64,000 nt of DNA from an uncultured Opitutaceae bacterium. Lineage in GTDB: Bacteria > Verrucomicrobiota > Verrucomicrobiia > Opitutales > Opitutaceae. Positions 8,771-63,248 of this stretch are shown one piece after another; positions within the stretch are counted from its first letter, which is position 1, and each line of letters begins with the position of its first letter. The position numbers and the translations under genes are program-made. A model generated the notes under the pieces. It did no database searches. It was not told where the DNA came from and was given only the letters and a program-made list of their open reading frames with translations. The stretch covers positions 62,001 to 126,000 of the forward strand of contig CALFNN010000102.1 of the NCBI GenBank assembly GCA_937902925.1. Reading direction: 5' to 3'.

Positions 8771-8801
8771 TTGTCCGGTTTTCGAATCGGTGCCTGCTAT
8801 C
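8771..8801 (+). promoter_or_regulatory. promoter-like motif of sigma fusion 1
   Basis: TTGTCCGGTTTTCG begins at 8771. The element GCTATC follows at 8796-8801, 19 bp after TTGTCC. The same arrangement occurs before all four sigma fusions. The motif starts 45 bp before the ATG at 8816. Confidence 0.6.
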
Positions 8802-8815
8802 ATGGCATCGAAACC

Positions 8816-10294
8816 ATGATCGAGGACCGCGAACTGCTCCGGCGCTATGTCGAAGACCGCTCCGAGGCGGCGTTTGCCGAGATTGTCCGTCGGCGGATCG
8901 ACCTAGTTTACTCGGTCGCGCGGCGGCAGGTCGGGGGCGACACGCACCTGGCGGAGGATGTCACGCAAAAGGTGTTTGCCGATCTGGCGCGCAAGGCGAC
9001 GGAACTGGCCGGGCGGGCGGTGCTGAGCGGCTGGCTTTACCGGAGTGCGCAGTTTGCCGCGACGGACGTAGTGCGGAGCGAGCGGCGCCGGCGGACGCGC
9101 GAACAGGAGACCCAAATCATGAATGAAACTTCCCCGGGCGCGGATGTCGCGGTGGACTGGGAACGGTTGCGCCCGCTGCTGGATCAGGCGCTGGGGGAGT
9201 TGGGCAACGCGGAACGCGATGCGGTCGCGTTGCGCTTTTTCGAGGGGCGGGCGTTTGCGGAAATCGGTCGCGCACTGGACCTCACCGAGGAGGCGGCGCG
9301 GAAGCGCGTGGAGCGGGCGCTCGACAAGCTGCACGCGCTACTGGCGCGGCGCGGGGTGACTTCGACGGCGGCGGCGCTCGGGGTCGCGCTGGCGAATCAG
9401 GCGGGAATCGCCGCGCCGGCGGGACTGGCGGCGAGCGTCACGGGGGCGGCAATGGCGGGGACGGCGGCGGGGACGGCCGGGTGGCTGGCGACTTTTATGA
9501 CCATCGGCAAACTACAGGTGGGGATCGCGAGCGCGGTCGCGGCGGCATTCGCGACGGCCTACGTGTTGCAGGGAAAAACCAATGCGGCGTTACGCGGGGA
9601 AATTGCGGCGTTCCAGGGACAGCAGTCGTCGATGGCCGCGCTGCACGCGGATAATCAGCACCTGGCGGATGTCGCCGCGGAGGTCGAGATGCTCCGCCAC
9701 GATGACGTCGAGCTGAAACAGCTCGCGGAGCGCGCGGTTGAAATCAAGAAGGCAAACGCCGAGAAAGCACGTCTGACTCAAGCCCGCACGCAAGACCTGC
9801 GCAATGCATTCGCAGATCAGATCCGCGCCGACGACCAGCGCGCACAGCAAGAGATTGATCGGATGAACCGGGAGGGCAGTAAACTCGTCGAAGAATACAA
9901 GGTGCTCTTCGACCGATCGAAAGATGTTTCGCTCTCTGCGGAGGCTAGGGCGCAGGCGGAAGCGGAGGGGAAGGCAAAGTTAGAAGAGGTCAAGCGGACG
10001 CGCGACGAGATCAGGGCGTTTTCCGAAAACACTCGCGAAGCACTCACGCAGCGCGTCGACGCGTTCCGCCGCGTCTACGGCGACGATCCGAATTCTCCGC
10101 TGGCCTCGCTTCAGATAGGAAGCGGCGGATTCGAAGTGCGCCGCGTCCCGGCCGATGGCACCTCGCCCGCTTCACCACCGGTAATTCGTGCCGGAGCCCA
10201 GCAATTTGAAGGCCAGCGGGTGCCGGTTACCAGCGAAAATCCGAATGGCAACCAACCACCAGTAGGAGAGCTGAAACTCGGCCCGAAGCCCTGA
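8816..10294 (+). CDS. ECF-type sigma factor fused to membrane segment and long coiled coil (sigma fusion 1)
   Basis: A 492-residue protein. Residues 1-175 are an ECF-like sigma factor: region 2 (AFAEIVRRRIDLVYSVARR, then DVTQKVFADLARKA) binds core polymerase and the -10 element, and region 4 (LRFFEGRAFAEIGRALDLTEEAARKRVERAL) has the helix-turn-helix for -35. Residues 178-215 are the hydrophobic, small-residue linker shared by all four paralogs. A likely membrane helix is at about 233-251. The rest is charged coiled coil (257-410), then a Pro-rich tail. ATG 8816 aligns with the other copies. The coiled coil probably acts in dimerisation or partner binding outside the sigma core. Confidence 0.85.
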   Translation: MIEDRELLRRYVEDRSEAAFAEIVRRRIDLVYSVARRQVGGDTHLAEDVTQKVFADLARKATELAGRAVLSGWLYRSAQFAATDVVRSERRRRTREQETQIMNETSPGADVAVDWERLRPLLDQALGELGNAERDAVALRFFEGRAFAEIGRALDLTEEAARKRVERALDKLHALLARRGVTSTAAALGVALANQAGIAAPAGLAASVTGAAMAGTAAGTAGWLATFMTIGKLQVGIASAVAAAFATAYVLQGKTNAALRGEIAAFQGQQSSMAALHADNQHLADVAAEVEMLRHDDVELKQLAERAVEIKKANAEKARLTQARTQDLRNAFADQIRADDQRAQQEIDRMNREGSKLVEEYKVLFDRSKDVSLSAEARAQAEAEGKAKLEEVKRTRDEIRAFSENTREALTQRVDAFRRVYGDDPNSPLASLQIGSGGFEVRRVPADGTSPASPPVIRAGAQQFEGQRVPVTSENPNGNQPPVGELKLGPKP

Positions 10295-10327
10295 GGGTGT
10301 GTTCGCGAAAAACTTCGACGCAACAGC

Positions 10328-10618
10328 ATGAAACATCGATCTACCGTTGGATTCTTCGTCGTGCTCACGGTGCTGATCGTCGCGGGTAGCGCCGGTCTTG
10401 CCTCGCAGTGGCAGCAGACGATGCTGCTGCGCGGCGAACTCGACGGCTTGCGCGACCAGGAGCGCGAATGGAAGGCGTTGAGGGTGGAAAACGAGCGGTT
10501 GCGCGCGCAGCAAATTCCGGCGGCGGAGCTGGCGGCGTTACGGGCGGATCACGTGGCGGTGGCGCGGTTGCGGGCGGAGTTGGAGGCGCTGAAGAAAGGC
10601 GCGACGCAGGGGCGTTGA
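10328..10618 (+). CDS. small membrane-anchored coiled-coil protein, companion of sigma fusion 1
   Basis: A 96-residue protein starting 34 bp after the sigma gene. One N-terminal hydrophobic segment (FFVVLTVLIVAGSAGLA, about 9-25) is followed by a charged heptad-rich helix to the end. The layout (one helix, then coiled coil) copies that of the C-terminal half of sigma fusion 1, so the two may pair through their coiled coils. That is inference; no known family was recognised. Confidence 0.65.
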   Translation: MKHRSTVGFFVVLTVLIVAGSAGLASQWQQTMLLRGELDGLRDQEREWKALRVENERLRAQQIPAAELAALRADHVAVARLRAELEALKKGATQGR

Positions 10619-10715
10619 ACTGACGGCGGGTAGGGGAAGCCGCGCGGCGGATGGGGGCGTGATTCCGGCGGGACAGGCAGAAGCAGGGAAGCCGGCGAGC
10701 GGGGCGGAAGTTTTT

Positions 10716-10746
10716 TTGCGCGGTTTTCGGGACGGCGGGTGTTAGA
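10716..10746 (+). promoter_or_regulatory. promoter-like motif of sigma fusion 2
   Basis: TTGCGCGGTTTTCGG begins at 10716 and GTTAGA lies at 10741-10746, 19 bp after TTGCGC, inside GGCGGGTGTTAGAGG. It starts 42 bp before the ATG at 10758 and leaves only about a dozen bases before the start codon, so the transcript would be nearly leaderless. Confidence 0.6.
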
Positions 10747-10757
10747 GGGAAAGCACC

Positions 10758-12500
10758 ATGACCGATGACACCGAATTACTGCGCCGCTACGCCGAGGAAA
10801 AATCGGACGACGCCTTCGCCGAACTCGTGCGGCGGCACATCGACTTCGTCTACGCCGCGGCACTGCGGCAGGCGCACGGCAACGTGCCGCTCGCGCAGGA
10901 TGTCGCGCAGGTCGTCTTCACCGACCTGGCGCGCAAGGCGGGGCGGCTGGCGCGGCACGAGGTGGTCGTCGGCTGGCTCCACACGGCGACACGGTTCGCA
11001 GCCGGGAACGCGATTCGCTCGGAAGTCCGCCGGACGGCGCGCGAGCAGGAGGCTTTCGCGATGAACGAGGCGCTGCAGGAAGCGGACGCTCCGGCCGATT
11101 GGGAGCGGTTGCAACCGGTGCTCGACGACGTGCTGGGCGAATTGAAGGAACGCGAGCGCGCGGCGATCTTGCTGCGGTTCTTCGAGAAGAAGCCGCTCGC
11201 CGAGGTCGGGGCGAAACTGTCGCTGACCGAGACGGCGGCGCGTTCCTGCGTGGACCGGGCGCTGGAAAAAATGCGCGGCCTGCTCGCGCGGCGGGGCGTG
11301 ACCTCGACGGGCGCGGCCCTCGCGGTCGCGCTCGGGAATCAGGTGAGTGTGGCGGCACCGGCGGGACTCGCGGCGAGCGTGACGGGCGCGGCACTGGCGG
11401 GCGCGGCAGGGGCCGCGGCCGGCGGCGGCGCGATCGTCGCGGTGAAGATTTTGAATTTTATGAGCACAACCAAAATAGTCAGTGGAGTCGCGGGCGTCGT
11501 GGCGTTGCTGGCCGTCGGCTCCGCCGTCTATCAGGCGAACCTCGCCCGCGTGGCGGAAGCGAGCGCGACGGCGGTCGGCACGGAACGCGACGAATTGCGC
11601 GCCAAGCTGGGCGCGGTGGAAAAACACGCGCAGCAAGCGGATGACAGCCTGGCCGCCGCGCAAAAGGAACTGGGTGAAGCACGCGCCACGGCGGCGAAAC
11701 TGGCCGAGGCTCCGCCGACGCGTCCGCCGGCCTCGCAGTCCGGCCCGGCGATGGACTACGTGCTCGAGCATCCCGAGGTGCAGCCTACTTTTGTCGCGCA
11801 GCAGGCGCTGCGCTTGAAGGCGCACTATGACCGGTTTCTCAAGGCCTCGGGACTGTCGCCGGAGCAGCAGGAGGAGTTCCTCAGCGAGATGAAGGGATTG
11901 TCGGCCGACGAGCTGGATCTCATGGCGGCGCTGCACACCCAGGGCTATGGCGTGGGAAACCTGCCGAAGGATCCGCAGGCGCAGGCCCAGTTTCAGGAGC
12001 TGTTGAACGAACATCGGCAAAACACACAAGACATGCAGGCGAAGCTGCACGCGCTGATGGGTGACGACCTCTTCAAGCGATTCGCACAATTCGCAGGCAC
12101 GATTCCCGAGCGCAACGTCGCGGACCAGGTCGCGGCGCAGCTCTACTACACCGATGCGCCGCTCACCGCGCCGCAGGCGGACCAACTGGCGCAGATCCTC
12201 GCGCAAAACCGTTACTCCGGCCAGCCGAAGCCCACGCCGACCACCACGATGAACGGAACCTTCATCACGCCGCAGGCGATGACCGGCCGCCGGGGCCAGG
12301 CAATGCAGCAGCAAGGCATGAACCTGATGGACTGGCTCGCCCCCGTGACCGACGCGGCGCTGGCGCGGGCCCAGGCGGTGCTGACGCCGGCGCAGTTCGC
12401 GGCCTTGCAGCAGATCCAGGCGCAGCAGGTGACCCAGATCCAGCTCGCCCCGCCGCCGCCGGGAGCGCCCGTCGCGCCGGCCGCCGGCGGCGCCAAGTGA
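10758..12500 (+). CDS. ECF-type sigma factor fused to membrane segment and LTxxQ-repeat domain (sigma fusion 2)
   Basis: A 580-residue protein. Residues 1-175 are the ECF sigma part (region 2 around 20-62, region 4 around 118-176). The shared linker with RRGVTST and VAAPAGLAASVTGAALAG spans 178-215. FMSTTK precedes a predicted membrane helix at about 239-258. A coiled coil (261-320) leads to a helical C-terminal domain with LSPEQ (366-370), LTAPQ (469-473) and LTPAQ (542-546). These resemble the LTxxQ motifs of Spy/CpxP-type periplasmic chaperone-sensors. The first ~210 residues align gap-free with the other three fusions. The C-terminal domain may sense envelope stress or protein partners; that role is inferred. 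Confidence 0.85.
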   Translation: MTDDTELLRRYAEEKSDDAFAELVRRHIDFVYAAALRQAHGNVPLAQDVAQVVFTDLARKAGRLARHEVVVGWLHTATRFAAGNAIRSEVRRTAREQEAFAMNEALQEADAPADWERLQPVLDDVLGELKERERAAILLRFFEKKPLAEVGAKLSLTETAARSCVDRALEKMRGLLARRGVTSTGAALAVALGNQVSVAAPAGLAASVTGAALAGAAGAAAGGGAIVAVKILNFMSTTKIVSGVAGVVALLAVGSAVYQANLARVAEASATAVGTERDELRAKLGAVEKHAQQADDSLAAAQKELGEARATAAKLAEAPPTRPPASQSGPAMDYVLEHPEVQPTFVAQQALRLKAHYDRFLKASGLSPEQQEEFLSEMKGLSADELDLMAALHTQGYGVGNLPKDPQAQAQFQELLNEHRQNTQDMQAKLHALMGDDLFKRFAQFAGTIPERNVADQVAAQLYYTDAPLTAPQADQLAQILAQNRYSGQPKPTPTTTMNGTFITPQAMTGRRGQAMQQQGMNLMDWLAPVTDAALARAQAVLTPAQFAALQQIQAQQVTQIQLAPPPPGAPVAPAAGGAK

Positions 12501-12550
12501 GGCGCGAGGATTTCGTCAGAAAACCAAAAGATCCAAAACCAGAATTCACC

Positions 12551-12790
12551 ATGATTAAATTCGAACACACCACCGTTGTCCTGCAGTTGGAGAAAAAGAA
12601 TTTTGCGGTTTCGCGCGCGGACGTTTTCCAAGGGCTTTCCCGGGAAAGCGCGGAGACCCTCGCAAAGCTCGGCGAACAGGGCTGGGAACTCGTCGCGGCT
12701 TTTCCAGTGTCGTCGGGCAGCGCCGGGTTGACCTCGTTTGCGGCGACCGACGCGGCGCTCGGGCTGCTCAAGCGCCCGAAGGCGGCGTAG
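12551..12790 (+). CDS. small DUF4177-like protein
   Basis: A 79-residue protein starting 50 bp after sigma fusion 2. It contains LAKLGEQGWELVAAFPV, the hallmark of DUF4177-type small proteins (Gly-Trp-Glu-Leu-Val after a short helix). The ATG at 12551 was preferred to an upstream in-frame start that overlaps the sigma stop. No signal peptide or membrane segment. A strong terminator follows at 12814-12841, so sigma fusion 2 and this gene look like one transcription unit. Confidence 0.7.
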   Translation: MIKFEHTTVVLQLEKKNFAVSRADVFQGLSRESAETLAKLGEQGWELVAAFPVSSGSAGLTSFAATDAALGLLKRPKAA

Positions 12791-12813
12791 GAGGCGGAAC
12801 TTCCGGTTGGGGA

Positions 12814-12841
12814 CGCCGCCTTCGCGGAAGGCGGCGTTTTT
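12814..12841 (+). terminator. Rho-independent terminator after sigma fusion 2 unit
   Basis: A 10-bp perfect stem (CGCCGCCTTC / GAAGGCGGCG) with a 3-base loop GCG is followed directly by five T residues at 12837-12841. It lies between the DUF4177-like gene and the promoter motif of sigma fusion 3, showing that the sigma genes are separate transcription units. Confidence 0.85.
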
Positions 12842-12842
12842 G

Positions 12843-12873
12843 TTGTCCGGTTTTCGCGGTGGCGGGTGATAAT
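12843..12873 (+). promoter_or_regulatory. promoter-like motif of sigma fusion 3
   Basis: TTGTCCGGTTTTCG begins at 12843 and GATAAT lies at 12868-12873, 19 bp after TTGTCC, preceded by TG as in an extended -10. The motif starts 43 bp before the ATG at 12886. It follows immediately on a terminator. Confidence 0.65.
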
Positions 12874-12885
12874 GGGTGCATGGCC

Positions 12886-14322
12886 ATGATGGACGACAGC
12901 GCGCTGCTCCACCGCTACGCCGAGGAACGCTCGGAGGAGGCGTTCGCGGAGCTCGTGCGCCGTCACATCGGCCTCGTTTACCATGCCGCGCTGCGGCAGA
13001 CGGGCGGCGACACCACGCTCGCGGAGGACGCGACGCAGGCGGTGTTCACCGATCTGGCGCGGAAGGCGCGGGTGCTGGCGCAGCGGCCGGTCATCACCGG
13101 CTGGCTTTACACGAGCACGCGTTTCGCGGCGGCGAAGGCGCGGCGCACAGAACGGCGGCGGCAAGTCCGCGAACAGGAGGCCCAGCTCATGCATGAACTC
13201 AACCAGGATACCGGCTCCGCGACGGAGTGGGAGCGGTTGCGGCCGGTGATCGACGATGCGCTCCACGCCCTCGACGAGCGCGACCGCGAGGCGGTGCTGC
13301 TGCGCTTCTTCGAGGGCCGGCCGTTTGCCGAGATCGGCGCGAAACTTTCGCTGACCGAGGACACGGCGCGGGTGCGCGTGGGCCGGGCGCTGGACAAGAT
13401 GCACGCGCGGCTGGCCCGCCGCGGGGTGACGTCGACCGCGGCGGCGCTGGCCGCGGCGCTTGCAAACCAGACGGTCGCAGCGGCGCCCGCAGGGCTGGCT
13501 GCGACGGTGACGGGGGCGGCGCTGGCGGGAGCGATGAGCGGCGCGGAGGTCGCGTGGCTCGCATTTTTCACGATGAACAAAATCAAAGCCGGGGTGGTGG
13601 GGGCGATCCTCCTCGCGGCGCTCGTGCCCGCGTTGGTCGAGGTGCGGGCGCATCAGGCGCTGAGCGACGAATTGCAAAATCTCCAGGCCGGGGAGAACGC
13701 GGCGCAGCGCGCGAACACACAGTTGATGACGGCGCTCGCCAAGGTGGGTGCGAAGAACCCGGTGGCGAACGAATCGGGTGAGCTGGCAAAGATGCGCGCC
13801 CGCGCGGCGGTGCTCCGGGCGCGACCCGAAGGCGTCGTCGAGGCGGAGATGCGGCCGCCGGCCAATGCGGGCTGGGCGACCCCGGAGGCGGCGTTCGAGA
13901 CGATGAACTGGGCGGTCACGGCCGGCGATTGGGCGACGTTCGCCAAGTCTTGGAAGTTCGAGAGGGAGAACAAGTCGGCGGCGGATGCATTTTTCGCCGG
14001 GCTCAGTCCCGAGGCACGGGAGAAATATGGCACGCCGGAGCGCGTGCTCGCGCATGCGCTGCTGGAGTCATCCTTCCCGCACGGGAGCGACTGGATGGTG
14101 GCGATGCAGGTTTACGACGTTCAAGTGGTCGACGGGCCCGCTCCGATGAAAGTGCTGATCTGGCAGCGGCTGGGCGACGGGCATGAGTTTGCCAACGCCG
14201 CCACGCTGGAACGGTCCGCCGGCGGCTGGGTCGCGGGGCAACCGGGCGTGGCGAAAATCCTGAAGATTCTGATTCCCCAGCTGGACTCGGTGTCGGGCGA
14301 ACTGCGGCCGAAACAGAAATAA
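12886..14322 (+). CDS. ECF-type sigma factor fused to membrane segment and a domain shared with the next gene (sigma fusion 3)
   Basis: A 478-residue protein counted from the ATG at 12886, which aligns MMDDSALL with MTDDTELL of the paralogs; ATGs at 12880 and 12889 are alternatives. The sigma part covers 1-175, the conserved RRGVTST...VAAPAGLAATVTGAALAG linker 178-215, and a predicted membrane helix about 233-251. A short coiled coil follows. Residues about 330-478 form a domain containing LSPEAREKYGTPERV. The downstream membrane protein carries the same motif (LPPEAREKYPTPEKM) at the same place in its fold. The domain may be NTF2-like, though I cannot confirm the fold. Probable role: a membrane-held sigma factor with a sensory or partner-binding tail. 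Confidence 0.85.
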   Translation: MMDDSALLHRYAEERSEEAFAELVRRHIGLVYHAALRQTGGDTTLAEDATQAVFTDLARKARVLAQRPVITGWLYTSTRFAAAKARRTERRRQVREQEAQLMHELNQDTGSATEWERLRPVIDDALHALDERDREAVLLRFFEGRPFAEIGAKLSLTEDTARVRVGRALDKMHARLARRGVTSTAAALAAALANQTVAAAPAGLAATVTGAALAGAMSGAEVAWLAFFTMNKIKAGVVGAILLAALVPALVEVRAHQALSDELQNLQAGENAAQRANTQLMTALAKVGAKNPVANESGELAKMRARAAVLRARPEGVVEAEMRPPANAGWATPEAAFETMNWAVTAGDWATFAKSWKFERENKSAADAFFAGLSPEAREKYGTPERVLAHALLESSFPHGSDWMVAMQVYDVQVVDGPAPMKVLIWQRLGDGHEFANAATLERSAGGWVAGQPGVAKILKILIPQLDSVSGELRPKQK

Positions 14323-14343
14323 GTCGGACAACAACGCCGAACG

Positions 14344-15150
14344 ATGATCGCGAAACTGTTCAAAATCGGACTGCCGCTGCTAGTCCTGGGGCTGGGTATC
14401 GGAGCGTATGTCCATTTCCGCAGGGCCAACGCCCGGCTGAGCCAGCAGGTCGTGGCCGCACGCGAGCGGAACGAACGGACCGCCCGCCTGCGCGAGAACA
14501 ACGAAAAATTGCGCACCATCGTGGCGCGGGCGAAAGCGGACGAGGGTGATGGGTTGCGCGCGATCCACGCGGAGGCAGCGCAAGCGCGGAACGAGGTTGC
14601 GAATTTGGAGCGCCAGGCCGGGGAACGCTACACCGCGAAGGTGGCGAAGGACGAGGCGGCAGCCGAGGCATTGCAGTCCAACCGCGCCCCGACCAAGGGC
14701 CCGATGCTCGTCGACAACTGCCGCGACGTCGGCCGCGGCTCGCCCGCCGCCGCACTCCAGACGCTGGTGTGGGCGAGCGTGAAAGGCGACGACGAGGCGG
14801 TGGCGGGCATGATTGTGCTCGACGGCAAGGCCCGGGGGCTGGTGGCCGCGCTGCTCGCGACGTTGCCGCCGGAGGCGCGGGAAAAATATCCGACCCCGGA
14901 GAAAATGGCGGCGCTCGTGCTGGCGGACATGCTGCTGAACGTCTCGACGATCCAGGTGGTGGCACAGTCGCCTCTCGACTCGCAGCGCGTCGTAGTGACG
15001 GTCGGAAACCTCTCGGGGAAGACCATCGACCTCGTGATGGCCGCCGGGCCCGACGGCTGGCAGGTGGTGACCGCCGACCGCAAGATATTCGAGCAGTTCA
15101 AAGCCAAAATCGTGGGCGCGGGTCCGCCGCCGGCGCCCGCAAAGAAGTAG
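14344..15150 (+). CDS. membrane-anchored coiled-coil protein sharing the tail domain of sigma fusion 3
   Basis: A 268-residue protein starting 21 bp after sigma fusion 3. An N-terminal membrane helix (about 8-24) is followed by a long charged coiled coil (28-115) and a globular domain (about 132-250). That domain contains LATLPPEAREKYPTPEKM, clearly paralogous to the C-terminal domain of the preceding sigma fusion. It is thus the sigma fusion without its sigma part. It could form mixed oligomers with sigma fusion 3 or compete for the same ligand; this is inference. The C-terminus is Pro/Ala/Lys-rich. Confidence 0.75.
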   Translation: MIAKLFKIGLPLLVLGLGIGAYVHFRRANARLSQQVVAARERNERTARLRENNEKLRTIVARAKADEGDGLRAIHAEAAQARNEVANLERQAGERYTAKVAKDEAAAEALQSNRAPTKGPMLVDNCRDVGRGSPAAALQTLVWASVKGDDEAVAGMIVLDGKARGLVAALLATLPPEAREKYPTPEKMAALVLADMLLNVSTIQVVAQSPLDSQRVVVTVGNLSGKTIDLVMAAGPDGWQVVTADRKIFEQFKAKIVGAGPPPAPAKK

Positions 15151-15174
15151 GTCCGCCAGGCGGCGAAGATTATT

Positions 15175-15204
15175 TTGTGCGGTTTCGGCCGCGCCGGTGT
15201 TTAG
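15175..15204 (+). promoter_or_regulatory. promoter-like motif of sigma fusion 4
   Basis: TTGTGCGGTTTCGG begins at 15175 and GTTTAG lies at 15199-15204, 18 bp after TTGTGC, within CCGGTGTTTAG. It starts 43 bp before the ATG at 15218. Confidence 0.55.
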
Positions 15205-15217
15205 CTGCTGAACACCG

Positions 15218-16504
15218 ATGACGGATGATGCCGAACTGCTGCGCCGCTACGCTGAGGAACGCTCGGAGACCGCTTTCGCGGAATTCGTGGAGCGCCGGGT
15301 CGGGCTGGTTTACGCCGCGGCATTGCGGCGGGTCAGCGGTGACGAGCACGCGGCGAAGGAGGTGGCGCAGCAGGTTTTCACGACCGTGGCCCGACGGGCC
15401 GCGGCACTCGCGCGGCACGACGCGCTCACGGGCTGGCTCTACACCGCCACGCGTAATGCCGCGGTCAATCTGCGCCGCGACGAGCAACGCCGGCGCCTGC
15501 GCGAACGTGAGGCCAGCGCGATGAACGAGCTGCTGGCGAGCCCCGCGCCGGAAGCGGACTGGGACCGGCTCCGCACCGTGATCGACGAAGCCATGGACGA
15601 GTTGGCCGGTGCGGATCGCGAGGCGGTGCTGTTGCGTTTTTTCGAGGGCCGGCCATTTGCCGAAGTCGGCGCGAAACTCCAGCTCACGGAAAATACGGCG
15701 CGGATGCGCGTCGATCGGGCACTCGACAAGCTGAGGATTCGACTCGCGCAGCGCGGCATCACATCGACGTCGGCGGCGCTCGGGGTCGTGTTGGCGAGCG
15801 AGGTGGGCGTGGCGGCGCCGGCGGGGCTGGCGGCGACGGTGACGGGCGCGGCGCTGGCGGCGGCGGCGAGCGTCGGTGGCGCCGCAGGCATCTTTGCATT
15901 TATGAGCACAACCAAAGTCGTGACGGGTGTGGTGGTCGTGATTGCAATCGGAGCGATGGGAATAGGATTCTTTCAATTCAGGAGAGCTCAGACCGTGGAC
16001 GCTACGGTTGCGTCGCGTCCACAAGCGCACGGGCAACCGGGCGCGCAGTTCGCGGCTGCGGAGGCACCGACGCCAAGTGCTCAAGCCGCAGCTCGCGAAG
16101 CGGGGAACGATGGCGCGACACCGGATGCGGCCGACGCTACTCCGCTGGGAAGGCAGCGGGAGCCGTTGTCGGGCCGCGCGGCCGCCGTCGAGACTCAAGA
16201 AACAGCGCCGGCGAGGTTCGGCCGGGAACCGATGCGAATGGCGAGTGTGTTGGGTGCAGTGCAAAAGCCCGGAGTCGTCTATTTTCCGGCGCAACAGGAT
16301 CTGACGCTGGTTCAGGCGATTGTCATTGCGGGTGGATTCGGCCGAATCGCGGATAAACACCGGGTTTCAATTCGGCGGCTCAATGCTGAAAACAAGCGTG
16401 AAACCGTCGTCATCGACATGGACGCGATCTTAAAGGGCAAGGCAGAGGACACGTGGGCGTTGCAGCCCGGCGATGTCGTGGTGGTTCCCGAAATATTGTT
16501 TTAA
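15218..16504 (+). CDS. ECF-type sigma factor fused to membrane segment and SLBB domain (sigma fusion 4)
   Basis: A 428-residue protein. The sigma part (1-175), linker (QRGITST...VAAPAGLAATVTGAALA, 178-214), FMSTTK box (228-233) and membrane helix (about 235-252) match the other fusions. A long Ala/Pro/Gln-rich spacer (257-338) leads to residues 341-428: VLGAVQKPGVVYFP, TLVQAIVIAGGF, then ALQPGDVVVVPEILF. This is a textbook SLBB (soluble-ligand-binding beta-grasp) domain as in Wza-type polysaccharide export proteins and ComEA. I infer that it couples transcription to a polysaccharide or another envelope ligand. It is the only member of the array without a companion gene downstream. Confidence 0.87.
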   Translation: MTDDAELLRRYAEERSETAFAEFVERRVGLVYAAALRRVSGDEHAAKEVAQQVFTTVARRAAALARHDALTGWLYTATRNAAVNLRRDEQRRRLREREASAMNELLASPAPEADWDRLRTVIDEAMDELAGADREAVLLRFFEGRPFAEVGAKLQLTENTARMRVDRALDKLRIRLAQRGITSTSAALGVVLASEVGVAAPAGLAATVTGAALAAAASVGGAAGIFAFMSTTKVVTGVVVVIAIGAMGIGFFQFRRAQTVDATVASRPQAHGQPGAQFAAAEAPTPSAQAAAREAGNDGATPDAADATPLGRQREPLSGRAAAVETQETAPARFGREPMRMASVLGAVQKPGVVYFPAQQDLTLVQAIVIAGGFGRIADKHRVSIRRLNAENKRETVVIDMDAILKGKAEDTWALQPGDVVVVPEILF

Positions 16505-16521: not shown

Positions 16522-18297
16522 CTACCCCACCGCGAAGATCTCCACCGGTTCGGCGCGGCCTTTGACTCGGACGGGGCCGAGGGGGCGGAAAGTAGGAATC
16601 AGGAGAGAGGAGTCAGGACTCAGGAGACCCGAAGGCGGAGACGAGGTGCGGCGGCAGGCTGCAACCGTGGCGGCGCTGGTGACGATGTTGGTGCGATAGG
16701 CCACGGTGCGCGTGAGCGACTCGAGGCGGGAGGCGACGTTCACGCCGTCGCCGATCACGGAATAGTTGAGCCGGCGGTGGGAGCCGATGTTGCCGGCGAC
16801 GACGCGGGCGGTGTTCACGCCGACGCCGATGCCCAATGGCGGGCGGCCTTCGGCGGCGAGCTCGGCGTTGAGGCCAACGAGGGCGCGCTCCATCGCGAGC
16901 GCGGCGGCGAGGGCGCGGTCGGCGGCGTCGGACTGCGCGACGGGGGCGCCGAACAGGGCCATGATCGCATCGCCGATGAATTTGTCGATGACCCCGCCGT
17001 GCGCCTCGATCGCGGCGCTCATCCGGTCGAGGTAACGGTTGAGCAGCGTGAGGAGTTCACGCGGAGGAAGCTTCTCGCTGAGAGTGGTGAAGCCGCGAAG
17101 ATCGGAGAAAAGGATGGTCACTTCGCGTTCCTCGCCGCCAAGCGCGGCGCCACCGTCGCGCATGAGCTGCGCGGCGACCTCGGGTGAGACGTTCTTGTCG
17201 AGGAGGTCGCGGACGCGGTCGCGCTCGGCGAGCCCCTCGGACATGGCGTTGAAGGCGGTGGCGAGCTGGCCGAGCTCGTCGACGCGGTCGAGGTGGAGCC
17301 GGGTGGCGTAGTCGCCGGCGGCGACGACTCTCGTGTGGGCGGCGAGTTGCTGGACGGGCTGACTGATGCCGCGGGCGATCCAGAGGGCGGCGAGCGTCGC
17401 GACGGCGAGCGCGGCCAGCGAGATGAGCATGATGTAGTTTTCGACCTCGCGGGCAGCGGCGAGCTCGACGCTGAGCGGGCGCTGCAACACGACGGTGACG
17501 GGCGCCTCGGCGAGCATGTCCTGCGGCTTGAAGAGCGTGACGTAGCGGCCGCCGGGCAGGTCGAGTGTCTTGATGCGTTCGGGTGCGCGCAGATTGGCGA
17601 CAACCGATTGGGCAACGAGGCCGGCGGCGCTGGCGTCGAGCGTGGTGGCAAGGACACGGGGCCGGGTGACGTCGTCGATCGAGACGAACGTCACCTCAAG
17701 GCGGCTGATGTCCTTGATCTTTTCGGCGAAGGCGCGGTCGATCGGAAAGGCGAGTCCGAACCAGGCGGCGACATGCGGAATGGGTGCATAGAGCGGGACG
17801 ACGACGAGGACGTGCAGGCGGCCGTTGAGGTAGGAGAAGCCGCTGGTTTCGGGCGGGTCATCCCCGGCGTGTTCGATCAGGTATTGAAACGGGCCGACGT
17901 TTTCGTTGGCCATGGTTTCGTCGCTGTTGGCGAGGAGATCGCCCTTGGGGTCGAGGAGAGCAATGACGGGCGAGTTGATGCGCTGGGTGTAGCTGCGCAG
18001 CAGCGAGCCGAGGGTCTGCCGGTCGATCTCGGGCTTCAGCAGCAACTGGCGAACCGTGTAGTCGCCGCTCATGAGGCTGGCGTTGCCCGCGAGGTTTTCG
18101 ATGCGCTGGCGGGCGGCCTCCTGATAGACGCGCGCGCCGAGATCGAGGTTGGTGGCCGCGTGTTCGCGGGCCGTCTGGTCGTTGTAGTGGGAAACGAGTT
18201 TCTGCGTGGTGGCGAGCGCGGCGAAGATCAGCCCGAGGAGAATCACGAGCAGCCGGATGCTGAGGCGACGGAAACGGAAGAGGCGGAAGACGCTCAC
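16522..18297 (-). CDS. membrane class III adenylate/guanylate cyclase with HAMP domain
   Basis: A 591-residue protein from GTG at 18297, just downstream of the cupredoxin gene. Membrane helices at about 13-31 and 288-308 enclose a Cache-like extracytoplasmic sensor region; then comes HAMP (310-362) and a class III cyclase catalytic domain (390-550). Active-site residues are all visible: metal Asp399 (FSDLRGFT) and Asp443 (KFIGD), base-contact Lys439 and Asp517, and transition-state Asn520 and Arg524 (VNVASR). It should therefore be active, making cAMP more likely than cGMP. A 7-bp repeat at 16597-16624 adds a Ser/Pro-rich insertion near residues 553-568, close to the C-terminus. Last gene of a probable four-gene operon. 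Confidence 0.88.
   Translation of the reverse strand: MSVFRLFRFRRLSIRLLVILLGLIFAALATTQKLVSHYNDQTAREHAATNLDLGARVYQEAARQRIENLAGNASLMSGDYTVRQLLLKPEIDRQTLGSLLRSYTQRINSPVIALLDPKGDLLANSDETMANENVGPFQYLIEHAGDDPPETSGFSYLNGRLHVLVVVPLYAPIPHVAAWFGLAFPIDRAFAEKIKDISRLEVTFVSIDDVTRPRVLATTLDASAAGLVAQSVVANLRAPERIKTLDLPGGRYVTLFKPQDMLAEAPVTVVLQRPLSVELAAAREVENYIMLISLAALAVATLAALWIARGISQPVQQLAAHTRVVAAGDYATRLHLDRVDELGQLATAFNAMSEGLAERDRVRDLLDKNVSPEVAAQLMRDGGAALGGEEREVTILFSDLRGFTTLSEKLPPRELLTLLNRYLDRMSAAIEAHGGVIDKFIGDAIMALFGAPVAQSDAADRALAAALAMERALVGLNAELAAEGRPPLGIGVGVNTARVVAGNIGSHRRLNYSVIGDGVNVASRLESLTRTVAYRTNIVTSAATVAACRRTSSPPSGLLSPDSSLLIPTFRPLGPVRVKGRAEPVEIFAVG
16597..16624. repeat. heptanucleotide repeat inside the cyclase gene
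   Basis: Four consecutive 7-mers (AATCAGG, AGAGAGG, AGTCAGG, ACTCAGG) with strict 7-bp period lie within the 3' part of the cyclase coding region. They encode part of a Ser/Pro/Leu-rich insertion. A second islet with the same period occurs at 24344-24371. Confidence 0.65.
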
Positions 18298-60737: not shown

Positions 60738-63248
60738 TTACAGCGAATCCAAGTCCACGAGAATCTCGCGCGGGCTCGAGCCGTTTTCCGGGCCGACAAT
60801 GCCTTTTTCCTCCATGATTTCCATGACGCGTGCGGCGCGGTTGTAGCCGATGCGCAGCCGGCGCTGAAGCATCGAGGTGCTGGCGCGGCGCGTGGACTTG
60901 AGCACGTCGAGCGCCTGCTGATAGAGTTCCTCGTCGTCGCCGAGGTCGCCATCATCGCCCTCGTCATCGCCCTCCTCGTCGTCCTCTTTCGCGGCCCGGT
61001 CGATCTGGGCCTGCACATGCGACGCGTAAACCGGGGGGCCGTTTTTCTTGAGGAACTCGACCACGGTCGTGATCTCATCATCCGATACGAACGCCCCTTG
61101 GGCGCGCACCAGCTTCGACGTGCCGGGGGGCGTGAACAGCATGTCACCGCGGCCGATCAGTGTCTCGGCGCCCTTGCCATCGAGGATGGTGCGCGAGTCG
61201 ACCTGCGAGGCGACCTGGAACGCGATGCGCGAGGGAAGATTCGCCTTGATGACGCCGGTGATGACATTCACCGACGGACGTTGGGTCGCGATGATAAGAT
61301 GGATGCCGGCGGCGCGGGCGAGTTGCGCGAGGCGGGCGATGTTGGTCTCGATCTCGGCCGGCGCGACCATCATGAGGTCCGCGAGTTCGTCCATGACGAC
61401 GACGATGTAGGGCAGGCGGTCGGGAATCTCGAGGTCGTCGGCGAGCGGATCGACGCCGGTGAGCGCACCCTGCGTTTCGGCGGGGGGTGTTTCGGGCTTG
61501 GGGGTTTTCTTGCGCGCGTTAAAGCTGGTGATGTTGCGGACGTTTTCCTTCGCGAAAATCTGGTAGCGTTGCTCCATCTCGCTCAGCAGCCACTTGAGCG
61601 CACCGGGCACCTTCTTTGCCTCGGTGAGAACCGGGATCAGCATGTGCGGAAGCGAATTGAAGATTTTCAACTCGACCACCTTCGGGTCCACCATGATGAG
61701 GCGCACGTCCTTGGGGCTCTTCGAGTAGAGGATCGACGCGATGATGGCGTTGATGCAGACGGATTTTCCCGAACCGGTGGCGCCCGCGATCAGCAGGTGC
61801 GGCATCTTCGTGAGGTCGGAGACGAGCGGCTTGCCCGAGACATCCTTGCCGAGCGCGATGGGCAGCTCGGCCTTGGCGCCCGCCCAATCCTCGCTTTCGA
61901 GAATGCCACGCAGGCCGACGGCCGTCGCGTGCTGGTTGGGCACCTCGACACCCACCGCCGCCTTGCCCGGAATCGGCGCGAGGATGCGGACGGATTGCGC
62001 CTTCATGCCGAGTGCGATGTTCTTATCGAGGCCGGAAATTTTTTCGACGCGCACGCCGGCGGCCGGCACGACCTCGTAGCGGGTGATGACCGGGCCGACA
62101 TGAATTTCGCCGAGCGTCACCTCGACGCCGAATTCGCCGAGGATGCGCAGGAGGTTTTCGGCGTTCGTGCGGTGCTCCGCCTCGCTGTTGCCGGCCGCAG
62201 GTCCGGACTGCTCCTTCAAAATGGTAAGCGGGGGAAACTGGTAGTTGGCGTCGTCGCTTTGCGGCAGCGTGACCTGTTTCGCTTTCTTCGGCTCCTCGGG
62301 TTTGACGATGTTGAGCTCCACTTGGGCCGGGGGCTTCTTTTCGGAGGCGGTTTCGCCGGCCGGGGACTTGCCGAGCTTGAGCGCGGGAGCGGTTTTGGGT
62401 TCGACCTTCGGCGGGGGCGCGGCAACGGGCGCCGGCTCCGCCGGCCGCGTCGCGGCGGGTTTGGCGAGGGGATCCTCGGTGGTTTTCGGGACGAACGTTT
62501 TCTTGCCGGTCGGCCCGACCGGTGCCGATGGCGCGGTCGTGCCCGGTCCGCTGGCGGGGCTGGCGCTGGCGGCGACCACCACGGCAGCGGCTTTCAGTTT
62601 TGCCTTGGCTTCTTTTTCCTTCTGGCGCTTCGCGGCTGCTTCCGCCCGACGCTGGGCGCGTTCCGCGCGCCAGCCGCTGAAATTCGTGACCATTTTTTCA
62701 ATTTCCGAACCGATGTCCTTCATCAGGACAAAGAGCATGCTCGAGACATAAACCGTGCCCATCAGCAGGCCGGCGCCAAACGCCCCGAGCGGAGCCTTGA
62801 GGCCGCTTTGATAGACGAAGTGGCCGAGCAGACCGCCCGGACCCTGCGGAAACCAGTCGCTTTCCTTGAAGTTTTCGAACATCGCCGCCACGCCGGCGAA
62901 CGTGACGATGCACAGGAGCATCGCGATGAACCGGGCCGTCGTGAGGTGCTTCGAACTGCGCACCGAATAGACCAGCCAGACGAGGAGGAATATTGGCACC
63001 AGCCATGCCGCCCACCCGAACGTGACGAACGAGATCCAGGAAACGTTGGCGCCCCAGCCGCCCGCGATATTGTTGCCGGTTGGACTGGTCGTCAGGTGGG
63101 AGGTCTGGCTCGGCTTGTAATCGAAGAACGCGACGCTCAACCACGTGCCCAGCATGAAGCAACCGACGGCGGAGAGCCAATTCGGACGGTAACGTGGCGC
63201 TTGGAAAGACGGGCCGTCGTTTGAGTTTGAAGTCTCGGACTTGGGCAT
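60738..63248 (-). CDS. ftsK: DNA translocase FtsK
   Basis: An 836-residue protein. Four N-terminal membrane helices (first ~190 residues) and a Pro/Ala/Lys-rich linker are followed by alpha/beta motor domains. Walker A is GATGSGKS near residues 485-493, Walker B the IVVVMDELADLM block. The C-terminal winged-helix gamma domain (YQQALDVLKSTRRASTSMLQRRLRIGYNRAARVMEIMEEKGIVGP) reads KOPS sequences. It pumps chromosome ends through the septum at division. The linker is shorter than in E. coli, as in many non-enteric FtsK/SpoIIIE proteins. Confidence 0.95.
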   Translation of the reverse strand: MPKSETSNSNDGPSFQAPRYRPNWLSAVGCFMLGTWLSVAFFDYKPSQTSHLTTSPTGNNIAGGWGANVSWISFVTFGWAAWLVPIFLLVWLVYSVRSSKHLTTARFIAMLLCIVTFAGVAAMFENFKESDWFPQGPGGLLGHFVYQSGLKAPLGAFGAGLLMGTVYVSSMLFVLMKDIGSEIEKMVTNFSGWRAERAQRRAEAAAKRQKEKEAKAKLKAAAVVVAASASPASGPGTTAPSAPVGPTGKKTFVPKTTEDPLAKPAATRPAEPAPVAAPPPKVEPKTAPALKLGKSPAGETASEKKPPAQVELNIVKPEEPKKAKQVTLPQSDDANYQFPPLTILKEQSGPAAGNSEAEHRTNAENLLRILGEFGVEVTLGEIHVGPVITRYEVVPAAGVRVEKISGLDKNIALGMKAQSVRILAPIPGKAAVGVEVPNQHATAVGLRGILESEDWAGAKAELPIALGKDVSGKPLVSDLTKMPHLLIAGATGSGKSVCINAIIASILYSKSPKDVRLIMVDPKVVELKIFNSLPHMLIPVLTEAKKVPGALKWLLSEMEQRYQIFAKENVRNITSFNARKKTPKPETPPAETQGALTGVDPLADDLEIPDRLPYIVVVMDELADLMMVAPAEIETNIARLAQLARAAGIHLIIATQRPSVNVITGVIKANLPSRIAFQVASQVDSRTILDGKGAETLIGRGDMLFTPPGTSKLVRAQGAFVSDDEITTVVEFLKKNGPPVYASHVQAQIDRAAKEDDEEGDDEGDDGDLGDDEELYQQALDVLKSTRRASTSMLQRRLRIGYNRAARVMEIMEEKGIVGPENGSSPREILVDLDSL

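Follow-up and report, generated by a model that had tools for sequence, protein, structure and literature searches.

The window analysed here is a 64,000-nucleotide stretch of DNA from an uncultured Opitutaceae bacterium (assembly GCA_937902925.1, contig CALFNN010000102.1, hereafter C102, forward-strand positions 62,001 to 126,000; coordinates are counted from its first letter). At 8816-16504 it carries an array of four genes, sigA to sigD, each encoding an extracytoplasmic function (ECF) sigma factor joined through a linker and a predicted transmembrane (TM) segment to a C-terminal tail of its own. The array consists of the following genes and open reading frames (ORFs).

8816..10294, + strand: sigA, ECF sigma, linker, predicted TM segment (residues ~233-251) and coiled-coil tail, 492 amino acids; sigma regions from Pfam/NCBIfam
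10328..10618, + strand: small stand-alone TM plus coiled-coil gene 3' of sigA, 96 amino acids; blastp against the fused anchor/coiled-coil segments, best E 2e-11
10758..12500, + strand: sigB, ECF sigma, linker, predicted TM segment and helical LTxxQ-like tail, 580 amino acids; Pfam/NCBIfam and a structure model
12551..12790, + strand: small ORF 3' of sigB without a TM segment; weak similarity to DUF4177 (E 1.9e-4), under the Pfam cut-off
12886..14322, + strand: sigC, ECF sigma, linker, predicted TM segment and predicted NTF2-like tail, ~478 amino acids, start at 12880 or 12886; Pfam/NCBIfam and blastp
14344..15150, + strand: stand-alone protein of TM segment, coiled coil and predicted NTF2-like domain, 268 amino acids; tail homologous to that of sigC (blastp 34%, E 3e-10)
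15218..16504, + strand: sigD, ECF sigma, linker, predicted TM segment and SLBB tail, 428 amino acids; Pfam SLBB_2, E 5e-8

Domain searches revealed Sigma70_r2 and Sigma70_r4 in all four sigma genes, with TIGR02937 E-values of 5.6e-17 to 3.1e-20; the region 2 match of sigB falls slightly under the Pfam cut-off (23.2 versus 24 bits). Regions 2 and 4 are present and region 3 is absent, as defines the ECF class (group 4), and this core is intact in all copies scanned. In the family alignment, the four rows are mutually free of indels to about residue 215, with an Arg-Gly pair at residues 179-180 in all four. A hydrophobic segment then starts at residue 233-240, with a 19-residue Kyte-Doolittle mean of 1.76-2.5, and leads into four unrelated tails. 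The initial annotation had described four consecutive genes with a common ECF core, alignable without indels over ~210 residues, that run into a hydrophobic segment and then diverge completely, and each of these statements is borne out. In the structure model of sigB, regions 2 and 4 are confident, residues 241-313 form one unbroken helix, and the helical tail (residues 329-483) has a high predicted local distance difference test score (pLDDT); the low predicted template modelling score (0.46) makes the arrangement of the domains uninformative. Structural similarity search revealed that this model resembles region 2 of sigmaE, with a Z-score of 12.3 and a root-mean-square deviation (RMSD) of 2.1 over 93 residues, and also matches SigW.

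A survey for the same core with variable tails, as the initial annotation had suggested, uncovered a much wider family in this genome and in relatives elsewhere. With sigB as the query, 25 fused genes with a complete sigma core and linker were found in the 6.0-Mb draft genome (95% complete), and a linker-plus-TM profile gives 25 too. One to seven copies are present in 15 of the 24 other genera of Opitutaceae, whereas the 13 other families of Opitutales gave no match to the linker-plus-TM profile at E ≤ 1e-6; when the sampling was extended to 241 genomes across the phylum, 13 had matches at E ≤ 1e-10, two further families among them. The closest named relative comes from an Opitutaceae metagenome-assembled genome (79% identity), and the named relatives belong to Opitutaceae and other Verrucomicrobiota. 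C102 holds 10 of the 25 genes (two arrays), namely the four of the window and six at C102:39.7-52.4 kb, and contig C55 holds five more. Recent tandem duplication among sigA-sigD was ruled out by the sigma-core tree, on which the four are not each other's nearest relatives and form no clade, indicating an old family rather than a fresh tandem duplication. Across 71 family members, the hydrophobic segment is predicted at the equivalent place in 62, with a Kyte-Doolittle mean of 1.86 compared to 0.84 for the best window of the sigma core. The linker is conserved across the family and rich in Ala and Gly; no zinc finger was matched by Pfam in the 24 members scanned, and the family alignment contains no invariant Cys or His.

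Upstream of each gene of the array sits a promoter-like element.

8771..8799 (C102:70771-70799), + strand: element of sigA, TTGTCCGGTTT-N16-TA, exact pattern match
10716..10745, + strand: element of sigB, TTGCGCGGTTT-N16-TAG, two mismatches
12843..12871, + strand: element of sigC, TTGTCCGGTTT-N16-TA, exact pattern match
15175..15203, + strand: element of sigD, TTGTGCGGTTT-N16-TA, exact pattern match

The element, TTGTnCGGTTT-N16-TA, is common to at least 22 of the 25 fused genes, and the motif derived from the sequences 5' of all 25 has an expectation-maximization score of 453, compared to 228-249 in shuffles. The strict pattern TTGTNCGGTTTN{15,17}TA occurs at 11 distinct sites in the genome, every one at a fused sigma gene and 9-17 nucleotides (nt) upstream of the start codon, with no hit for the reversed control. 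At fixed spacing and up to one mismatch, 13 of 13 sites are at fused sigma genes, as are 10 of 10 sites of two further patterns with an added GGCG element (controls 0). As the element ends so near the start codon, the leaders must be very short. Among 22 Opitutaceae genomes, 18 of 30 strict sites lie directly upstream of fused sigma genes. The position-weight score is above the 99th percentile of the null for 37 of 46 relatives, and variants of the element are present in other Verrucomicrobiota. Since nearly all family genes lie behind one element that is almost absent elsewhere in the genome, the family seems to induce chiefly itself.

A search for additional promoter targets was unproductive: at two mismatches the matches reach background, the 14 off-family sites checked lie mostly within long open frames, and such sites are no commoner than the 29 of the reversed control. 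One fused gene, L019, has no proximal site; a two-mismatch site is found 5' of the preceding same-strand gene, L140_3 (L140, C103, 3586-4429; no Pfam match), which the family may target as well.

Further comparison revealed two promoter classes, TGTnCGGTTT and TGTC(G/T)GATT (the variant TGTCGGATT), that covary with the recognition helix of region 4.2. The residue at the third position of the A-A-R-x-R motif, counted from the printed helices, is Arg in 51 of 51 members with the CGGTTT type of -35 element and Gln in 9 of 9 with the GGATT type. On the sigma tree the promoter class requires two changes, compared to a mean of 8.6 and a minimum of 6 after shuffling. Such covariation is what direct recognition would be expected to leave, and each sigma factor probably reads its own promoter. 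Moreover, most paralogues belong to one promoter class and would be expected to have a common specificity, with mutual activation as a possibility.

The fused genes are frequently accompanied by a second type of gene. In 15 of the 25 cases, by gene calls from a simple script, the next same-strand gene starts with a TM helix that leads into a coiled coil and, in most cases, a tail; the two genes overlap by a few bases or lie up to ~45 nt apart. The tail of this partner is often homologous to that of its neighbour, as for L018 and L140_13 (39%, E 5e-43), L017 and L137_2 (E 1e-45), and sigC and the 14344-15150 gene; the remaining partner tails resemble another tail of the family. Only a few residues precede the TM helix of the partner, so it cannot serve as a classical anti-sigma factor and its action is limited to the membrane or the space outside. 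Anchor-plus-helical-tail genes are also found without an adjacent sigma gene (L149, C17, 5634-7922; L150, C50, 4184-5239; L141, 10195-11118). At C70:67298-67423, 42 residues from the start of a fused sigma factor survive, apparently as a decayed copy, directly 5' of a stand-alone helical-tail gene (L145, 4536-5393).

The tails themselves are diverse. Those of sigA, sigB and sigC matched no Pfam domain. The coiled coil, the domain shared between sigC and the next gene and the SLBB domain named in the initial annotation are all present, whereas its LTxxQ domain in sigB is retained only as LTxxQ-like motifs in a tail modelled as all-helical, with no Pfam match to the LTXXQ family; the fold matches obtained with the complete sigB model extend over the sigma part only. 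AlphaFold2 prediction of the 14344-15150 protein (pLDDT 84) gave a long helix, a coiled coil and an NTF2-like domain. Its matches are modest, the best Foldseek hit being 3k7c (probability 0.99, E 0.024), with a Z-score of 7.7 and an RMSD of 3.4 over 97 residues against VIA, and an NTF2-like fold is predicted for this protein and the sigC tail. Elsewhere in the family, Pfam identified TonB_C in L011 and L014 (E 8.5e-17 and 1.1e-8) and ExbD in L020 (E 2.9e-8), an ECF sigma factor being joined in these three genes to parts of energy-transduction systems, in addition to weak matches to NfeD in L015 and DUF4878 in L006. TonB_C, ExbD and SLBB domains are normally periplasmic, and tails composed of cell-envelope domains support an outer-facing tail and a transmembrane topology. 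L015, with its NfeD-like multi-TM tail, has a flotillin (SPFH) gene 3' of it (Band_7, E 3.7e-33; L141, C80, 1389-4323), and in two other genera the genes with the same tail class (L163 and L184) are, by sequence inspection only, followed by a similar gene.

Clustering grouped the tails of the 71 members into 20 classes, of which the 11 with more than one member were placed on the sigma-core tree. They require 25 changes, between the minimum of 10 and the shuffled mean of 41, so the tails have been both inherited and exchanged; well-supported branches force at least four changes for the helical class and at least three for the NTF2-like class. The initial proposal that the array was built by duplication and tail swapping is supported by the tree as regards tail exchange, but the four genes are old paralogues and not mutual recent duplicates.

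A Met codon lies directly before the membrane anchor in 57 of the 71 genes, those of the array being as follows.

9497..9499, + strand: junction Met of sigA, ATG, candidate internal start
11460..11462, + strand: junction Met of sigB, ATGAGCACAACC
13573..13575, + strand: junction Met of sigC
15902..15904, + strand: junction Met of sigD, ATGAGCACAACC

The G+C content at third codon positions (GC3) drops sharply around this codon, with AT-bias at codons -4 to -1 and +2 to +5 (Z -8.2 and -5.6 in this genome, -8.4 and -5.3 in relatives) and flanks near expectation. GC3 is under expectation in 54 of the 57 genes, compared to no bias in 13 genes without the junction Met (0.85 observed, 0.81 expected); other internal Met codons have no such pattern. 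A Phe codon before the junction Met is TTT in 20 genes and TTC in 3, versus 272/509 elsewhere, and local RNA structure is weaker than in synonymous shuffles (Z +0.88; control 0.18). As the family shares ancestry, the Z-values overstate independence, and the contrast with the Met-less genes is the stronger argument. Real start codons in this genome are likewise followed by AT-biased early codons, as seen in 96 other genes, of which 4 have a Shine-Dalgarno sequence. A Shine-Dalgarno start at the junction Met was rejected (2 of 57), the real starts mostly lacking one too. The signature is weak in other families of Verrucomicrobiota, and the planctomycete set (Limnoglobus) has no GC3 dip focused on Met. 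Translation initiation within the ORF is the simplest reading of this signature, and it would give a tail protein like the stand-alone ones. The initial annotation regarded separate production of core and tail as evidence against the fusion. The continuous conserved frame favours the fusion, whereas the start-like signature leaves room for a separate tail; as the frame runs through and is conserved, separate tail synthesis would not refute the fusion.

A second conserved Met at about codon 103, between sigma2 and sigma4 (window 9119-9121 and equivalents), follows R-E-Q-E-A encoded as GAA CAG GAG GC. The first Glu is GAA in 38 of 46 genes and the second GAG in 38 of 46, the joint choice occurring in 28/37 versus 36/132 elsewhere (Fisher 1.8e-7). 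The AGGAGG within this context resembles a Shine-Dalgarno sequence, a signal that this genome rarely employs, and could mark a pause site or a further internal start, or stem from codon context.

The architecture, the promoter family and its covariation with the sigma factors, the partner genes and the codon signature are read from the sequence, and on this basis we propose that the family probably consists of one-piece bitopic transmembrane ECF sigma factors that are released by proteolysis and whose main target is their own genes. The cytoplasmic sigma2-sigma4 head would be connected through the linker to one TM helix, running into the coiled coil and a variable tail outside the inner membrane. 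Transcription of each gene would start at a promoter of the TTGTnCGGTTT-N16-TA or the TGTCGGATT type, recognised by the region 4.2 that the gene itself encodes, with most members having a single specificity in common. At rest, the head would be tethered at the membrane and inactive, and the tail would monitor the envelope jointly with partner tails, the partner being the co-transcribed stand-alone anchor-plus-tail protein and possibly also a copy of the sigma factor's own tail translated from the internal start. Tail damage, tail binding or partner loss might then trigger proteolysis that frees the head, and the freed sigma factor would transcribe the family genes, by which the consumed sensor is replaced and the envelope tails are raised. 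Proteolytic release and access of the head to DNA are proposed by analogy: IutY is freed by Prc and RseP (PMC5411451), and in SCO4117 loss of the TM part activates its own transcription, release by proteolysis having been proposed for ECF52 (PMC5826349). A gene for an M50 site-2 protease is present in this genome.

Several points weigh against this proposal. M50 proteases are near-universal in bacteria, so that the presence of one argues only weakly for release. Pfam scans recognised no anti-sigma domain in the linker that would account for an inactive tethered form, and the transmembrane status is suggested by hydrophobicity and the identity of the tails. A promoter serving only its own genes leaves any wider output unexplained, and weaker targets may be missed; given the start-like signature, the tail may also be made separately. 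Compared to the one-piece membrane sigma factors with interchangeable tails envisaged initially, the fusion, the predicted TM segment and the tail exchange agree; the promoter common to the family, its covariation with region 4.2, the partner genes and the junction Met signature had not been foreseen.

The most serious rival, which we place a little short of an even chance, is a nested gene in which the junction Met is a working internal start and each ORF yields the fused sigma factor plus a separate anchor-plus-tail protein, the latter being the main envelope product that tunes the tethered sigma. The GC3 bias on both sides of the Met and its lack in Met-less genes, the TTT-favoured Phe, the weaker local structure and the like bias of real starts, where Shine-Dalgarno sequences are rare, all speak for it. 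However, the signal fades in other Verrucomicrobiota families and is unfocused on Met in the planctomycete set, its Z-values come from related members, and a similar codon bias could come from pausing, from an internal promoter or from some other element acting at the RNA level. More tentatively, and on balance doubtfully, the family may form a closed self-addressed network of such nested genes, with ~22 sigma factors of one specificity whose strong sites are only their own promoters, each ORF giving a fusion and an internally started free tail, to make up a replace-on-damage system.

The remaining explanations are less probable. The sigma factor might be active while tethered, its head recruiting RNA polymerase to membrane-near promoters and its tail modulating it by conformation without proteolysis, as ECF41-type extensions do (PMC8999054). 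The lack of an anti-sigma domain or zinc finger match in the linker agrees with this, but it is unlikely, as the two characterised or proposed TM-fused ECFs, IutY and SCO4117, are freed by proteolysis or have been proposed to be. Burial of the hydrophobic segment in a soluble protein, with the tails as cytoplasmic interaction modules, is very improbable: no part of the sigma core comes near the segment in hydrophobicity, stand-alone relatives open directly with the same helix, and the TonB_C, ExbD and SLBB tails belong to normally periplasmic classes. Its attraction is that planctomycete relatives with similar linkers bear WD40 tails, a class proposed to work by protein interaction (PMC8999054), yet Tuwongella ECFs were recovered in detergent-soluble fractions (PMC8567305). 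Finally, the idea that the upstream element is a conserved leader or duplicated DNA instead of a promoter is hardly credible, as the element persists across genera and between paralogues of 40-60% protein identity while the flanks differ completely, is spaced like a -35/-10 pair and varies in step with the recognition helix.

The proposed transmembrane sigma factors resemble several known systems but belong to none of them. Similar to ECF52 (SCO4117 of Streptomyces), ECF48 and ECF53, which have at least one TM helix C-terminal to the sigma factor, they would combine an ECF sigma, a TM segment (predicted in 62 of 71 members) and an outer domain in one protein. SCO4117 shows positive autoregulation once its C-terminal part is removed (PMC5826349), comparable to the self-targeting proposed here. 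However, ECF48/52/53 occur only in Actinobacteria and have an anti-sigma domain of the zinc-finger type; the Opitutaceae family has no match to such a domain, and has 25 paralogues in this genome, one shared promoter and partner genes. IutY of Pseudomonas putida (ECF243) also unites sigma factor and regulator in one membrane protein (PMC5411451), but its periplasmic part resembles FecR and cooperates with a TonB-dependent receptor, and Pfam gave no FecR match in the family members scanned. The planctomycete ECF01-Gob/ECF57 type shares a homologous sigma core, linker and hydrophobic segment and likewise forms large paralogous sets; matches of the family profile in Limnoglobus roseus extend through linker and hydrophobic segment to position 246-255 of 261. 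These extended ECFs differ in their tails and, in the set tested, lack the TTGTnCGGTTT element and the Met-focused codon signature. Pfam found no WD40 tail in the family members scanned, WD40-like repeats being present in a relative (L106), and the two conserved Cys that link sigma2 and sigma4 in ECF57/ECF01-Gob (PMC8999054) have no invariant or near-invariant counterpart in the family alignment. With no zinc finger, FecR part, or WD40 tail with conserved cysteines, the family is placed in none of ECF48/52/53, IutY and ECF57. Canonical operons of an ECF sigma and a membrane anti-sigma factor also have an autoregulated promoter and a membrane protein gene directly downstream, but the downstream protein here, with few residues before its TM helix, cannot hold a sigma factor from the cytoplasm. 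TM-ECF fusions as a kind are already known. Relative to the open-access literature, the new features are a promoter family that addresses its own members and covaries with the sigma factors, the pairing with separate tail genes, the range of tails and the start-like signature.

Two neighbours deserve mention. The second sigma array (L135, C102, 16628-18588) ends beside an apparent MoxR-type ATPase operon, and the convergent gene at 16522-18297 (- strand) of the window seems, from its sequence, to encode a class III nucleotide cyclase that is membrane-bound and includes a HAMP-like part.

If the proposal is true, one polypeptide would serve as sigma factor, anti-sigma factor and sensor with swappable outer parts, including energy-transduction (TonB, ExbD), export (SLBB) and membrane-organising (NfeD/flotillin) domains. 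With a promoter in common and a single recognition-helix residue that covaries with it, this large set of paralogous sigma factors lends itself readily to testing specificity and cross-talk. The start-like signature inside the sigma genes suggests that bacteria may package a sensor and a free sensor in one frame, which standard annotation would miss. If the replace-on-damage reading also holds, proteolytic loss of an envelope protein would free the very sigma factor that re-induces that protein and its relatives.

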